Positions 20,918-26,976 of a stretch of DNA of 27,401 nucleotides are shown here, piece by piece. The DNA is from a virus. The position numbers and the translations under genes are program-made. The stretch is from positions 1 through 27,401 of IMG/VR virus record IMGVR_UViG_3300029319_000386; one strand, given 5' to 3'. How positions within the stretch are numbered: the first letter of the stretch is position 1; each line of letters starts with the position of its first letter. The notes below the pieces were generated by a model. It searched no databases and was not told the DNA's origin. It was given only the letters and a program-made list of their open reading frames with translations.

Positions 20918-21135
20918 TACTGCATCCCGCCCATATTATTGCGCATGGCACCAATTAAGCTCTGATATTGGATGGGCGCACTGCCGCTTACACCCCGTGC
21001 AGATGTTCCCCCAGAAGGCCTTTTCGGTGTGCCAGCCTCACGCCTATTCACCTCAGGTGTGGCGGGAGGTAAAACAGCTGGCGCAGGCGGCGCTGGCGGT
21101 GGTGGTGCTGGTCTTCGTCTGCTAAAAAATCCCAT
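20917..21135 (-). CDS. Small proline-rich protein between terminase and portal
   Basis: This 72-residue protein has an extremely Pro/Ala-rich N-terminal half (PAPPPPAPPAPAVLPPATPE) after a basic MGFFSRRR start. The C-terminal half is Gly/Ser/Arg-rich and ends SLIGAMRNNMGGMQ. It overlaps terminase and portal genes by one base on each side, so it is very likely a real, coupled gene. No family was recognised. Similar short proline-rich proteins with a basic or hydrophobic head occur at this position in many podoviruses and could be minor virion parts. Confidence 0.72.
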   Translation of the reverse strand: MGFFSRRRPAPPPPAPPAPAVLPPATPEVNRREAGTPKRPSGGTSARGVSGSAPIQYQSLIGAMRNNMGGMQ

Positions 21136-22427
21136 TATACTGCTACTCCTAGAGGATTATACTTGTTGTCAGCCACAGGCGGTGGGCGCTTACCATCAAA
21201 CATCCGGTTTTCTTTCAAACCCACAGCCAAATATCGAAACGCATCCGCAGCATGACTGGACCAATCATGCACAGGCGTAGTCCTAAAACTACGCATTCGC
21301 TCGTTATACGCCCTGTGATACTGCCTAAGCGCTTCCAGACCCGGCTTGCACAAATCCTTGTCAAACCAACAGCGAGGCAACATCATCTTTGCCGCATGAA
21401 TTCCATCTTCCAGCGGAAGCTTTGGAACAACTCTAAAATTTATGCCAAGATCCCAGGCAACTTCTCGGCGCGTCTTGCCAGTGCTTAACTCCCTCACCTC
21501 AATGTCATGAGGCGCATTGTGCGTCCCGTACAAATACTGCCGGTCCTGCAATACTCGCATGTAATGAGGCAAACCCTCACCGCGATTTTCATAGAAATCG
21601 ATCACATGTACAGCCCGACCAACTTGCTGCACAAACCAAATCACAGTACTGTCACCAACACCCAGATCCCAAAACGTATCCACCTTCACAGATGGATCAT
21701 ACGGAACTGAATTGATGCGCCCCTTATCCTGTAACTCTTGAAGCTCCTTACCAAAAACAGCCCCTGGAACATTCGCAACCCAAGAGCACTCATACTCCTG
21801 CGCAAATTGATCTGCCGACATCATCGCCCTGGCAGCGTCAAGCTCCTCATCATCCAGTATGGCTGTCTCACTTGCCTTGTATAACGCCGTGTGCCAATCC
21901 TCCTGCCTCTCAGCGGCACTGTACAGCTCAAAGAACGCATTGTGGCCCCTAGGTGTACCAATGAAGCAAGCCCAGCCCTTACGGTCGCTCAGAGCCGGCC
22001 TTATGATCTCTGGAAATAAACTCTCTGGCATGTCCGCCATCTCATCAAGCACAACACCATCCAAATATATTCCCCGCAAACTATCCGGGTTCTCCGCACC
22101 CAGTAACTGTATCCGAGCACCATTCGGCAAATCACAGCGCAGCTCTGTCTCATGAAAGCGCACCATCGGAATAGCACCAGCAAATTGCTTCAGATAATCC
22201 CATGCCACAGCTTTAGCCTGGCGATACGTGGGCGCAATGTAGGCATAACGGGGATTAGGTCTGCTATTCGTAAATGATCTGGCTAAGATGTGGTTGATCG
22301 CCATCACGGTCTTGCCAAAGCGTCGGTGGCATACGATCACACCCCAGCGCTTTTGACCAAGGGCTTCGTGTAAGCGCAGCTGCAGAGGTCGTGGTGTGTA
22401 TGGTATCTCAATCTGTGTGTGTGGCAG
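21135..22427 (-). CDS. terL: Terminase large subunit (packaging ATPase/nuclease), unusual start
   Basis: This is the DNA-packaging motor. The ATPase part has a Walker-A-like CHRRFGKT, a TYRQAK element, and a Walker B VVLDEMADM. The C-terminal nuclease has an acidic residue in FWDLGVGDST and the typical HDWSSHAADAFRYLAVG end. The first common start codon is GTG at 22340, only a few residues before Walker A, but the open frame continues upstream with conserved-looking QIEIPYTPRPLQLRLHEAL, which belongs to the family N-terminus. The frame closes at a TAA (22448-22446). Between them there is no ATG, GTG or TTG. CTG at 22427, with GGGA seven bases ahead, is my choice; ATA at 22445 is an alternative. 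The stop overlaps the next start (TAATG). Confidence 0.9.
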   Translation of the reverse strand: MPHTQIEIPYTPRPLQLRLHEALGQKRWGVIVCHRRFGKTVMAINHILARSFTNSRPNPRYAYIAPTYRQAKAVAWDYLKQFAGAIPMVRFHETELRCDLPNGARIQLLGAENPDSLRGIYLDGVVLDEMADMPESLFPEIIRPALSDRKGWACFIGTPRGHNAFFELYSAAERQEDWHTALYKASETAILDDEELDAARAMMSADQFAQEYECSWVANVPGAVFGKELQELQDKGRINSVPYDPSVKVDTFWDLGVGDSTVIWFVQQVGRAVHVIDFYENRGEGLPHYMRVLQDRQYLYGTHNAPHDIEVRELSTGKTRREVAWDLGINFRVVPKLPLEDGIHAAKMMLPRCWFDKDLCKPGLEALRQYHRAYNERMRSFRTTPVHDWSSHAADAFRYLAVGLKENRMFDGKRPPPVADNKYNPLGVAV

Positions 22428-22680: not shown

Positions 22681-23085
22681 CTACTCACTCTCAGCAAACA
22701 GATTGCCGCCAGCCCAACTGATTGTGATCTGACCTGATCCTTGCTTATCCTCTGCTTTGTTGCGCACACCTTTGCTTGCCATCTGTCGAATGTACTTGTC
22801 CTTCACATCAGCCTCGAGCCTACGCCTTTGCACCTCTGCATTGGCCAGCTGCTTATCGTCAGGCAGCGGAGCTGTAACCATCTCAATGATCTCATCGTGC
22901 ATGACTTCGCATTGTATTGCTCGAGCTCGTTCATACAGCCCGTGTGCTTCTTCGTCTTCTTGTACGTGTCTTAGGAAGGTCATGTAGCTGGGCATATCAC
23001 TGCCCTTACATATCCCCTTTATCGGGTTGCCCTGCATTATGAGATTGCAGATCTCGTCCATCTTTTGCTTAGATACTCTGGGCAT
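22681..23085 (-). CDS. terS: Terminase small subunit
   Basis: This 134-residue protein has an N-terminal helix-turn-helix (ICNLIMQGNPIKGICKGSDM with PSYMTFLRHVQEDEE), a long helical middle (LYERARAIQCEVMHDEIIEM), and ANAEVQRRRLEADVKDKYIR, found in small terminases of BPP-1-like and many proteobacterial phages. It recognises the packaging site and regulates the large subunit. The ATG is preceded by a good AGGAG six bases away. It is the first gene of the late run and comes after an intrinsic terminator and a set of TGTCCC repeats. The gap to the large subunit (about 250 bp) is unusual for this operon. Confidence 0.9.
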   Translation of the reverse strand: MPRVSKQKMDEICNLIMQGNPIKGICKGSDMPSYMTFLRHVQEDEEAHGLYERARAIQCEVMHDEIIEMVTAPLPDDKQLANAEVQRRRLEADVKDKYIRQMASKGVRNKAEDKQGSGQITISWAGGNLFAESE

Positions 23086-23150: not shown

Positions 23151-23182
23151 AAAGAAAAACCCCGCTTGTTAGGAGCGGGGTT
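23151..23182 (-). terminator. Leftward intrinsic terminator ending the early/control cluster
   Basis: The stem AACCCCGCT (23158-23166) and AGCGGGGTT (23174-23182) is a perfect 9-bp inverted repeat with a 7-base loop. On the minus strand it is followed by TTTTTCTTT, a good U-tract; on the plus strand it is not. It should stop leftward transcripts from the control genes before they enter the terminase operon, so late genes need their own promoter downstream of it. Confidence 0.85.
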
Positions 23183-23215
23183 CAGTGGGACTCAATCAAC
23201 GGGGAGGATAGTTTC

Positions 23216-23665: not shown

Positions 23666-24103
23666 CTAGCTAAAGTATTTGCCCAGGATCTCATCGTCCT
23701 GGGCTTTTATTTTGTACCAACACCTGATGAGCGCATCAGTGTATCTGCGTTTGATCTGTCTTCCATCTCTTAGCCCTTTCATCCTGGCAAGCTTCTGCCA
23801 TTTAGGCCCACGATCTCTGAAGGCTGCGCTATGCGCTACAGCCCAGACGATCCGTCGATCATCTTTGCTCATCATTTCTATTCCAAGAAACAGTGCTCTT
23901 TCGTATGCATCGATTTCCGCTGGTGATGCTTTGGGCAATGAAACCTTGAAATCTTCATAACCGTATGCGCTCCATTCTTGAACATATTCTGGCCATGAGC
24001 TCAACTTTTGTCTACGGAATGCCGCTGGCAGTTTGCGCTCGGTCTCAGCTGCTTTGAAAAAAATTTCTGACAATTCGCTTACGTCAGGTTTATCCACAGG
24101 CAT
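23666..24103 (-). CDS. DUF6362-like protein
   Basis: This 145-residue protein starts at ATG 24103; a TTG three codons upstream is possible. It has an N-terminal helix, then LPAAFRRQKLSSWPEYVQEW and KASPAEIDAYERAL. The core is SKDDRRIVWAVAHSAAF, followed by GPKWQKLARMKGLRDGRQIK and RRYTDALIRCW, with a helix-turn-helix-like end. This WPE / DDRR-VWA / W-x-ALxxC order is like DUF6362, a family common in alphaproteobacterial phages and prophages with unknown function. It is probably DNA-binding. A perfect DnaA box (24090-24098) lies inside its first codons. Its last codons overlap the terminator of the opposing gene. It is the last gene of the leftward control cluster. Confidence 0.7.
   Translation of the reverse strand: MPVDKPDVSELSEIFFKAAETERKLPAAFRRQKLSSWPEYVQEWSAYGYEDFKVSLPKASPAEIDAYERALFLGIEMMSKDDRRIVWAVAHSAAFRDRGPKWQKLARMKGLRDGRQIKRRYTDALIRCWYKIKAQDDEILGKYFS
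23681..23713 (+). terminator. Rightward intrinsic terminator of the isolated gene
   Basis: GCCCAGGA (23681-23688) and TCCTGGGC (23697-23704) form a perfect 8-bp stem with an 8-base loop. It is followed by TTTTATTTT on the plus strand. It sits 28 bp after the stop of the rightward gene and within the 3' end of the opposing gene. Confidence 0.85.
24090..24098 (+). other. DnaA box (perfect TTATCCACA)
   Basis: An exact match to the consensus strong DnaA box, in the same orientation as the second box at 24276, 186 bp away. It lies in the first codons of the DUF6362-like gene. Confidence 0.75.
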
Positions 24104-24187
24104 TTCTTTCAAAGAAAAAAATTACAGACATGTACATATCTGTGCTGATATGTGCGCGCTTTTTGGTGGCGCGCCCAATCAGCTAAA

Positions 24188-24211
24188 TGAGCGCATATAT
24201 GAGCGCATATA
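24188..24211. repeat. Tandem 12-bp repeat (TGAGCGCATATA x2)
   Basis: Two exact contiguous copies at 24188-24199 and 24200-24211 are followed by the partial start of a third (TGA). It lies between the two DnaA boxes, where initiator-binding iterons would be expected. Confidence 0.8.
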
Positions 24212-24275
24212 TGATACATGTCAGAACGCTTCGCGATTTTAAATACACCTCAAAAATCCAGTCAATACCCTTTTT

Positions 24276-24284
24276 TTATCCACA
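24276..24284 (+). other. DnaA box (perfect TTATCCACA), second copy
   Basis: An exact consensus match directly preceded by a T-run and immediately followed by the 10-bp repeats. About 0.2 exact copies of this 9-mer would be expected in a random sequence of this size counting both strands, so two copies 186 bp apart are notable. Confidence 0.75.
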
Positions 24285-24285
24285 A

Positions 24286-24329
24286 GTCGTCAGCGGTCGT
24301 CAGTGGTCTTCGATCGTCGTCAATCGTCG
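24286..24329. repeat. Tandem 10-bp-period repeat (GTCGTCA-like, about 4.4 units)
   Basis: The units begin at 24286, 24296, 24306, 24316 and 24326: GTCGTCAGCG, GTCGTCAGTG, GTCTTCGATC, GTCGTCAATC, GTCG. The period is one helical turn, so a protein bound to successive units would lie on one face of the DNA. The last units overlap the end of the leftward gene at 24300. Confidence 0.75.
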
Positions 24330-24602
24330 TATTTTTTTTACTGGTATCCACTCTTTAGTGCCGATAACGCGCGTGTGTGTCACTTCATCGTCTTCATCAA
24401 TTCGCACTTCTTTCTCGCCAGCTTTCATTTTTTTTTCGATACGCTCTTCACGAATTACTTTTTGATTGAGCGAGAGTTGAAACCGGCGCATCAAATGATT
24501 GATCTCCTTAAACAGCTCTTGGTGTTCATTTGTGTTCCAATGCTCACGATACTCACGCAGAGCCAGAATTACGATCTGGGTTTCTTCTTGAGTTAAATTC
24601 AT
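24300..24602 (-). CDS. Small charged helical protein, unknown function
   Basis: The chosen start is ATG 24602, preceded by GGAAAGGA, a good Shine-Dalgarno. It gives 100 residues starting MNLTQEETQIVILALREYRE. The protein is mostly helical and highly charged, with EELF-type helices early and IREERIEKKMKAGEKEVRID in the middle, then a short beta-like tail (THTRVIGTKEWIPVKKIRRL). No family was recognised. An open frame continues 30 codons upstream, but the ribosome site favours the shorter form. It belongs to the leftward control cluster and overlaps the end of the gene upstream by 50 bp. Confidence 0.6.
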   Translation of the reverse strand: MNLTQEETQIVILALREYREHWNTNEHQELFKEINHLMRRFQLSLNQKVIREERIEKKMKAGEKEVRIDEDDEVTHTRVIGTKEWIPVKKIRRLTTIEDH

Positions 24603-24777
24603 TTTTTTCCTTTCCATCTTTCTTAGAAAAAAAACCTGGTGCTCGAGACTTCCAATGCCAGTTGCTTTCCGACAGCTCTTGAAGCTTTGCATCTTTTAAT
24701 AAATCTTGCTGCACCTGTTTTTTAAACTCCTCCCTGTAATAATCTTCAAACAGTTTGATATGTGGGATTTTGATCAT
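24553..24777 (-). CDS. Small helical protein, unknown function
   Basis: The ATG at 24777 overlaps the stop of the GcrA-like gene (ATGA) and has AGAGG five bases upstream; a GTG two codons earlier is less likely. The 74-residue product has an amphipathic helix (LFEDYYREEFKKQVQQDLLK) and a Lys/Asn/Ser-rich C-terminus ending DRNSGSA. No family was recognised. The last 16 or so codons overlap the next gene in another frame, so the tail may be dispensable. Confidence 0.5.
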   Translation of the reverse strand: MIKIPHIKLFEDYYREEFKKQVQQDLLKDAKLQELSESNWHWKSRAPGFFSKKDGKEKNEFNSRRNPDRNSGSA

Positions 24778-24932
24778 TTGCACCTCTTACCTCGCTTTAT
24801 GCCCATCCTGTGAAGCTTTCCAATTACGGCACTGCGGGAAACCCAGCCTAGCGCCTCTGCTATTTCACTGCCGCTATAACCATCCATCCATAACTTAATG
24901 GCTCTTGATACACGTTCATCTGTCCATTTCAT
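24774..24932 (-). CDS. GcrA-like DNA-binding miniprotein
   Basis: This 52-residue gene starts at ATG 24932 with AGGAG seven bases before it. The product reads MKWTDERVSRAIKLWMDGYS, then GSEIAEALGWVSRSAVIGKL, then HRMGIKRGKRCK. It matches the N-terminal DNA-binding part of GcrA, the alphaproteobacterial cell-cycle regulator, including the W-T-DERV start, the KLWxxGxSxxEIAxxLG helix-turn-helix and the RSAVIGKxHRxG block. Host GcrA has a further C-terminal domain that contacts sigma-70; it is absent here. The protein could therefore compete with host GcrA at its sites or act as a phage-specific regulator. It supports an alphaproteobacterial host. It is coupled to the next gene by ATGA. Confidence 0.85.
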   Translation of the reverse strand: MKWTDERVSRAIKLWMDGYSGSEIAEALGWVSRSAVIGKLHRMGIKRGKRCK

Positions 24933-25649: not shown

Positions 25650-26032
25650 ATGATCACCCGCAGCGGCACAAAATCTTTGAGAAACAAATAAACATCCTCG
25701 ATGCTCTTACACACGGCATGGGGAAAACCAGCCTCGGTGATTTGTTTTCGCATCAGCTCCTGGTTTGCAGTGAGCTTGCCTCGTTTGACTTTTAGCTCGA
25801 TAAATATTGCTTCGTTGCGACCACTTACTGTGGTGTTTGCAGGGCAGAACAGCTCCAGGTCGGGCCAGCCATACTTTGTACCCATCTTTCGTAACCTGGT
25901 CGCATATGAAACGTGGCGCTTGCCCTCATTGGGGCTGTGATGAAACACACAGCCATCAGGTAAAGCATATTCTAAAAACGCAGCGACGTCTCTTTGGAGA
26001 TCATCCTCAGTCACGATCAATGTAGAAGTCAT
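25646..26032 (-). CDS. VRR-NUC-type nuclease
   Basis: This 128-residue protein (start ATG 26032, overlapping the Cro-like gene by 26 bp) has the PD-(D/E)xK core of the VRR-NUC family: GWPD (Asp58), then IFIELKVKRGKLTANQ with Glu79 and Lys81, followed by AGFPHAVCKSIEDV. Upstream, HHSPNEGKRHVSYATRLRKM is the family helix before the core. Phage VRR-NUC proteins cleave branched or flap DNA and may act as Holliday-junction resolvases or in replication and packaging clean-up. A longer frame starts at 26101, but that would place most of its extra N-terminus within the Cro-like gene. No Shine-Dalgarno is strong for either start; coupling to the upstream gene is likely. Confidence 0.85.
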   Translation of the reverse strand: MTSTLIVTEDDLQRDVAAFLEYALPDGCVFHHSPNEGKRHVSYATRLRKMGTKYGWPDLELFCPANTTVSGRNEAIFIELKVKRGKLTANQELMRKQITEAGFPHAVCKSIEDVYLFLKDFVPLRVIM

Positions 26033-26204
26033 TTGGTTGCACGGCCCCCATCGTAAGGTCCATAATTCGCTGCATGTGCTCTTTGGTTGGTATGACTTCA
26101 TGCTTGCACCAGCGGCTGGTCATGCGGCCATGCCCCACGTTCAAAACTTGGGCAAGCTTGCCATACGACCAGCCTTTTTCTTTTCTATATTCATCAAGTG
26201 TCAT
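26007..26204 (-). CDS. Cro-like helix-turn-helix regulator
   Basis: This 65-residue protein has a helix-turn-helix: MTLDEYRKEKGWSYGKLAQV, then LNVGHGRMTSRWCKHEVIPT. The pattern 'LAQVLNVGxxRxxxRWxxxxxxP' is XRE-type. The end GAVQPNDFYIDRD is often seen in small Cro-type proteins. It is transcribed away from the repressor-like gene at 26323, with both operators lying between them, the standard arrangement of Cro/CI-type switches. It is the first gene of the leftward control cluster. No Shine-Dalgarno is seen before its ATG. Confidence 0.85.
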   Translation of the reverse strand: MTLDEYRKEKGWSYGKLAQVLNVGHGRMTSRWCKHEVIPTKEHMQRIMDLTMGAVQPNDFYIDRD

Positions 26205-26279: not shown

Positions 26280-26291
26280 GGCATGTATAAT
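26264..26291 (+). promoter_or_regulatory. Rightward promoter of the repressor-like gene
   Basis: A perfect TATAAT (26286-26291) is preceded by GGACAC or CGGACA with 16-18 bp spacing, overlapping operator 2. Transcription would start near 26298, which excludes the open-frame start at 26290 and supports ATG 26323. Confidence 0.55.
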
Positions 26292-26322
26292 GTTATTAAT
26301 GTACAGCGATGGAAATCTACAA

Positions 26323-26976
26323 ATGAACAACTTAGAAGCGCTGATCCGAAAGTCTGGATATAGCAAAAAAGAATTTGCCGATCTTAATGGCATCACACCT
26401 ACTACACTGTCACGTCACATGCACGGTAAAGTTCCCATGACCGTCAGAGATGCGGAAAAGTATGGAGAACATCTAAACGTGTGTGCTCGAACGGTCCTTT
26501 TCCCAAGTACAAAAGTGCCTGTCATTGTGGAAAGACATGTATATCTTGAAAATGGTCAAGAAATCACACAGTACAAATACCTGACGCCCACTACAAAAGC
26601 CGTTGTAATTCCGGCTTATTACAATGACAAATGTGTAGCATTACATTGGAATATTCATCGAAGTTACAGTGGTGCCTGGAGTTGGCTCGAGGGTGCGTAC
26701 AATCTTTATCCACGCTTTCCAATTGAGCAAAATTTCGTCGATAAGGTATGCTTTCAACAACAAAGCCTCTGTAAACTTAAAGATCCAACTATGGCGCACG
26801 GCAAGCTTCAAGACGTTGTCGCAGCCCAGGTGTATCCACAACCAAACGGGTTGTATCATCTTGCTTCGGGCACCTGTGACATTGATATCCCAAATGTTCA
26901 ACTTGAGTGGGCAACTCCTCTAATAACAATAGTGGTGCGCCCAGACTTGAGAGGAATCACCACAGTATCAATGTAA
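26323..26976 (+). CDS. Repressor-like HTH protein with unrecognised C-terminal domain
   Basis: This 217-residue protein starts at ATG 26323, downstream of a TATAAT box. Residues 1-50 are an XRE-type helix-turn-helix (MNNLEALIRKSGYSKKEFAD, then LNGITPTTLSRHMHGKVPMT). A linker follows with KVPVIVERHVYLENGQEITQ, reminiscent of the first strands of LexA/CI-like domains. The rest (SYSGAWSWLEGAYNLYPRFP, and VYPQPNGLYHLASG near the end) matches no family I know. The S24 catalytic Ser and Lys motifs are not visible, so RecA-stimulated self-cleavage is doubtful. Divergent orientation to the Cro-like gene and the operators between them suggest the lysogeny repressor. An 8-bp perfect palindrome overlaps its stop codon. 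Confidence 0.75.
   Translation: MNNLEALIRKSGYSKKEFADLNGITPTTLSRHMHGKVPMTVRDAEKYGEHLNVCARTVLFPSTKVPVIVERHVYLENGQEITQYKYLTPTTKAVVIPAYYNDKCVALHWNIHRSYSGAWSWLEGAYNLYPRFPIEQNFVDKVCFQQQSLCKLKDPTMAHGKLQDVVAAQVYPQPNGLYHLASGTCDIDIPNVQLEWATPLITIVVRPDLRGITTVSM

Follow-up and report, generated by a model that had tools for sequence, protein, structure and literature searches.

In Escherichia coli, DnaA represses the promoters of mioC and gua, and it has a stimulating effect on transcription at ori-lambda (PMC8203912); the repression of mioC tracks the affinity of the DnaA box (PMC5835720). The HTVC010P-type pelagiphages encode a protein with DnaA domain IV after a nuclease and an SSAP (annealing protein), as seen in our analysis and also noted in PMC6811365, and Skadi-1, a phage of this type, was reported to be without a DNA polymerase (PMC10504331). 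For DnaA sites in phages of alphaproteobacteria, the nearest precedent among open-access papers is PMC9437464.

The DNA analysed here (the window) is 27,401 bp long; it is a virus record from IMG/VR and represents part of the genome of a podovirus, a distant relative of pelagiphage HTVC010P. Its genes include those for a small terminase of the Sf6 type, a DUF6362 protein and a VRR-NUC protein, a GcrA-domain ORF, and repressor-like genes, among them a Cro-like protein (26007-26204) and a repressor (26290-26976). The GcrA-domain ORF encodes 52 aa (24774-24932, minus strand), lies in the same control cluster and resembles the N-terminal portion of the host cell-cycle regulator GcrA; this domain points to an alphaproteobacterial host. 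A near-complete relative of 33.2 kb (G005) has a tyrosine integrase, which indicates that the group of phages with the module described below is probably temperate. The CRP-810-type phages were considered as the family and ruled out, as their genome is 57.7 kb long and has a Prim-Pol (PMC11288001). The relatives bearing the module are uncultured contigs throughout, mostly fragments, in which a missing match does not equal a proven absence.

The packaging operon and the module upstream of it

The DUF6362 gene (23666-24097, minus strand; PF19889, 2.3e-12) is the first of a leftward packaging operon, followed by the genes of the terminase small subunit (22681-23085, minus strand; PF20901, 5.1e-21) and the terminase large subunit (21135-22340, minus strand), the latter 57-59% identical to TerL of HTVC010P-type pelagiphages. 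A fold search with DUF6362 gave no significant match; its model is all-helical with the best local likeness to sigma region 4, and because of this weak likeness DUF6362 may activate late genes in the manner of RinA/ArpU. DUF6362 is likewise located just upstream of apparent terS and terL genes in L025, a distant contig from a Rickettsiales MAG. We also observed a strong intrinsic-terminator-like hairpin of 10 pairs with a T-rich tail just upstream of terS (23157-23183, minus strand), so transcription of terS and terL from the DUF6362 promoter may need read-through or antitermination.

Two exact DnaA boxes, TTATCCACA, had been predicted at 24090-24098 and 24276-24284, on one strand and 186 bp apart, and this was confirmed; they are the only exact boxes in the window. 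The chance expectation is about 0.23-0.32 exact boxes per window, and at least two occurred in 1-4% of Markov-simulated windows, thus the window taken by itself is merely suggestive. The looser consensus TTWTNCACA was found three times versus 3.3 expected, which is not significant, and the significance of the boxes comes from their conservation in relatives rather than from this count. The 12-bp tandem repeat, the inverted repeats and the repeat of 10-bp period described together with the boxes were also all present; however, the interval is not otherwise gene-free as had been proposed, since at one end the box at 24090-24098 covers the GTG start of the DUF6362 gene and at the other the 10-bp repeat enters the 3ʹ end of an ORF (24300-24692, minus strand). 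Rfam and tRNA searches gave no match.

Read in the direction of the operon, the module begins with the array of direct repeats of 10-bp period (24286-24330), located just upstream of the first box and with a lag-10 self-match of 0.71 in the window. As 10 is not a multiple of three, this period is not explained by coding. Lag 10 was prominent in most two-box relatives, with the repeated unit differing between phages; among the two-box modules the exceptions were L051, L057 and L062, which were without it, and L020, which had a 9-bp period. Of the box-less loci, two (L075 and L083) had the 10-bp period, but it was seen neither in the subclade with a degenerate first box nor in a box-less clade carrying a protein that we call F40 (see below). 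The first box, box A (24276-24284, minus strand), reads TGTGGATAA when written along the leftward transcript and lies 10 nt upstream of the -35 element. Of the 16 distinct two-box modules, 15 have a gap of 8-10 nt here and one (L020) has a gap of 16 nt. The gap is filled by the G-rich spacer AAAAAGGGTA (24266-24275, minus strand), and a TTTAGGGG-like element is found in most relatives, several box-less ones included.

The promoter (24236-24265, minus strand) is of sigma70 type, with TTGACT and TAAAAT separated by 18 bp (10 of 12 matches); TTGAC and TAAAAT are conserved among the relatives, and the -35 is mostly TTGACA in the box-less F40 clade, versus TTGACT or TTGACG. Directly after the -10 there is a short dyad, CGCGAAGCG (24227-24235, minus strand), whose position across the presumed start site makes it look like an operator in the DNA and not an RNA hairpin. 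Read by eye, the dyad varied in a compensatory manner between relatives (CGACTTGTCG, CGGCGTAGCCG, CGACGAAGTCG), with the form CGC-GAA-GCG and, elsewhere, CGAC-TT-GTCG and CGGC-GTA-GCCG. The structured leader (24098-24229, minus strand) contains inverted arms, a palindrome (24124-24143) and, between the two boxes, the 12-bp tandem pair (24184-24207, 11/12 match); a 12-bp period was read by eye in L004, L008 and L020. The folding energy of the leader was -45.3 kcal/mol in the window (z = -5.1 versus shuffles), and z ranged from -2.5 to -3.7 in four relatives. The module ends with box B (24090-24098, minus strand), which spans the GTG codon at 24095-24097; this GTG is the start codon, since the DUF6362 genes of L003 and L017 offer no in-frame start other than the one in the box.

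Conservation of the two boxes among relatives

The loci used for comparison were picked by DUF6362 homology, independently of their box content. In ten related contigs (231 kb), exactly two exact boxes were found in each, all in the module, where about two would be expected in total. In the DUF6362-tree clade, box B was exact in 30/30 testable members, i.e. those with upstream DNA present, and box A was exact in 21 of these 30, which thus keep both boxes; in one subclade of nine members box A was degenerate but in place (TGTTGATAA and similar forms). The columns of the boxes were near-invariant in modules with a mean pairwise identity of 58% and a minimum of 42%, and in box B the T preceding GTG and the T of GAT were invariant. 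In L060, DUF6362 is preceded by another small gene, and it is on the GTG of this gene that box B lies, indicating that the box belongs to the leader and not to the DUF6362 protein. These comparisons strongly support the two boxes as genuine DnaA-type sites under selection; binding by host DnaA is predicted from the near-universal consensus.

An exact-sequence search for the module in viral contigs returned no match, DUF6362 had no match in a collection of isolated phages, and its nine distant loci in bacterial genomes were all without the box pair (0/9). In a scan for the pattern of a promoter plus a box, 16 fetched sites had a second box at 198-224 bp and were by sequence members of the family, and at the remaining sites no second box occurred within 320 bp (one of them, L144, belongs to the family but is cut short). 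Additional boxes were noticed 2.3-3.4 kb upstream in L063-L070; as they lie in the part that encodes the repressor, and some of these contigs have only degenerate forms, we treated them as a coding coincidence. DnaA boxes may be used more broadly at phage promoters. In viral contigs outside the family (L129, L139, L149, L172, L187 and others), we often observed TGTGGATAACTT upstream of a TTGAC -35 element, at a distance of a few bases, mostly 6-7 nt.

Replication genes and the possible roles of the module

In the original prediction the boxes were regarded as a candidate replication origin, and a DnaA-dependent origin in a phage with T7-like morphogenesis as a mosaic of two lifestyles. The mosaic argument fails, since no T7-type replication gene was found: DNA_pol_A (PF00476) and DnaB_C (PF03796), and also DnaA_C, gave no match in 17 related contigs, some of which, at 33-35 kb, are nearly complete. 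The integrase of a near-complete relative also speaks against this argument. IstB/DnaC and Prim-Pol likewise had no match in 14 contigs, with PF13730 only below the threshold. Among the scanned control-region proteins of G005, the relative with the integrase, and of G014, no replication family was found and the functions were recombination, regulation, methylation and integration.

F40 is a winged-helix protein (PHROG 1123) encoded between the nuclease and the SSAP, for instance at L043:12714-13163 (minus strand). It was found in eight box-less contigs and in 0/22 box-bearing ones, some of the latter being short fragments that may stop short of this region. The twin boxes, the DnaA-domain-IV protein and F40 could, as judged from their distribution, be alternative ways of starting replication. 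However, a few lineages account for most of the boxes and of F40, the backbone of the TerL tree is either mosaic or unresolved, and there may have been as few as two or three independent switches.

The reading that we prefer, and to which we give about an even chance, is that the element is a switch on the DUF6362-TerS-TerL packaging operon that would respond to host DnaA. Host DnaA would bind both boxes; at box A it would act on RNA polymerase at the promoter, and at box B it would hinder the polymerase leaving the leader and/or the start of translation. We rate repression as likelier than activation, although the sign of the regulation is a guess. In the prophage or another low-copy state, the packaging genes would be kept low by host DnaA, and as phage DNA accumulates, DnaA would be titrated by the two additional high-affinity sites that each genome brings and the operon would open, so that packaging would come after replication. 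A phage regulator probably uses the repeats of the leader and the 10-bp array as its sites or as a scaffold; for this role the Cro-like protein, the repressor, DUF6362 itself and the GcrA-domain protein are candidates. We prefer a switch over an origin because of the geometry of a regulated promoter, namely the near-fixed distance to the -35 and the overlap with the start codon, and because weak boxes are not enriched, the position of the AT-richest stretch is not conserved and the skew is unchanged; a second role as an origin on the same DNA would be compatible with the switch. The retention of promoter and repeats in box-less relatives, where the module thus seems to work without DnaA, is a further reason for this preference, and the control of gua, mioC and ori-lambda transcription by DnaA (PMC8203912, PMC5835720) provides precedents. 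On the other side, the promoters of the box-less relatives show that DnaA control is dispensable, and this counts against the switch. Moreover, the lack of recognisable replication genes is not explained by the switch alone.

Alternatively, the module may be the phage origin, at which host DnaA, in a phage without its own initiator, would open the DNA on the two boxes and load the host helicase, perhaps in a variant where a phage protein acts on the 12-bp repeats in the style of iteron plasmids. We regard this predicted role as possible, though on the doubtful side. It would fit the fact that nearly complete relatives have no replication gene that could be recognised, the restriction of F40 to box-less contigs, and the arrangement of boxes, repeats, promoter and first gene, which is laid out like the origins of iteron plasmids. 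The DnaA-domain-IV protein of the HTVC010P-type relatives and the reported lack of a DNA polymerase in Skadi (PMC10504331) point in the same direction. Of the origin as it was originally proposed, the DnaA-type sites under selection stand, and the number of boxes, the unwinding element and the skew lend it no support. There are two boxes alone, with no one-mismatch box in any of the ten modules and two-mismatch boxes at background. Replication origins normally contain more than two DnaA boxes. An AT-rich unwinding element was not conserved, as the lowest-GC stretch shifts between the T-tract, the loop and the spacer; the GC content is 35-41% in the modules versus 44-49% in the genomes. The GC skew had the same sign on both sides of the module in 10/10 genomes, but since skew follows gene direction, this test is weak and cannot refute an origin either. 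The near-rigid spacing of one box to the promoter and of the other to the start codon and the retention of the rest of the module in box-less relatives also argue against an origin, and the link between F40 and the boxes perhaps reflects descent and not function, given the few independent switches and the short fragments among the box-bearing contigs. The most far-reaching form of this role, which we consider unlikely, is that host DnaA alone would start replication at a minimal origin of two boxes, in a temperate family without an initiator, helicase, loader, primase or polymerase of its own, and that, with the packaging start codon inside the second box, firing of the origin and expression of the packaging genes would be mutually exclusive.

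Several small HTH proteins are encoded in the control region, and one of them, instead of host DnaA, could bind the boxes as look-alike sites; we hold this to be improbable, as no DnaA_C domain was found in the family and the boxes match the near-universal consensus of DnaA exactly, whereas the repeats expected for a phage protein drift freely between relatives. It is still less probable that the boxes serve only as a sink for DnaA, disturbing host initiation during infection, with no local role in cis. High-affinity consensus sites do titrate DnaA, as described for datA and mioC (PMC5835720), but there are two sites per genome and none further, and their geometry is tied to the promoter and the start codon. 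As for chance or a by-product of coding (an N-terminal Val-Asp-Lys/Asn), the simulated windows would allow the former, but conservation of both boxes in independent lineages speaks against it, and the invariant T residues and the box on a different first gene in L060 speak against the latter; we consider either negligible. The module suggests, as far as sequences can tell, that these phages, which are marine and have presumably alphaproteobacterial hosts, read or borrow the replication control of the host.

Comparison with known systems

With E. coli mioC and gua, the module shares a consensus DnaA box at the promoter of an operon whose response is expected to follow host DnaA, and, as at a DnaA-regulated promoter, the box is at a fixed place by the promoter. 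Unlike in mioC and gua, two boxes bracket the promoter and the leader, one of them on the start codon, the operon is one of packaging genes, and the regulation is predicted. The lambda origin also has a temperate phage promoter under the influence of host DnaA, which is predicted here; lambda, however, has its own initiators O and P, and no such gene was recognised in the twin-box phages. The origins of the iteron plasmids P1 (oriR), RK2 and pSC101 likewise combine DnaA boxes, tandem repeats, a promoter and the gene of a DNA-binding protein within about 250 bp, and in the phage module too, tandem repeats adjoin the DnaA boxes. In contrast to them, the first gene of the module is DUF6362 beside terminase and not a recognised Rep, there are two boxes, and an unwinding element is not conserved. 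If the module is an origin, it would belong to a phage that relies on DnaA with two boxes only and without its own initiator, and it would explain how temperate phages related to HTVC010P replicate without recognisable replication genes.

The HTVC010P-type pelagiphages share with this family the TerL, the early operon with nuclease and SSAP, and the absence of a DNA polymerase (reported for Skadi-1, PMC10504331), but they encode the DnaA-domain-IV protein and lack the twin exact boxes, and DUF6362 had no match in the phage collection searched. In L224-L230, which are of the HTVC010P type, terS and terL have upstream of them, at a comparable position, just one DnaA-like site of degenerate sequence (TTATCCACA, TTATACACA, TTATCAACA, TTATACAAA).

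Being small and well delimited, the module lends itself to testing, with precise targets for mutation in the 10-bp array, the spacing of the boxes and the overlap with the start codon. The CtrA-controlled alphaproteobacterial phages resemble the twin-box family in having phage promoters that read a host cell-cycle regulator; in those phages the DnaA sites showed no positional asymmetry (PMC9437464), whereas in the twin-box family all exact boxes are at one place. If DnaA controls the packaging operon, the twin-box phages would read the replication state of the host through its initiator, analogously to the phages that read CtrA.
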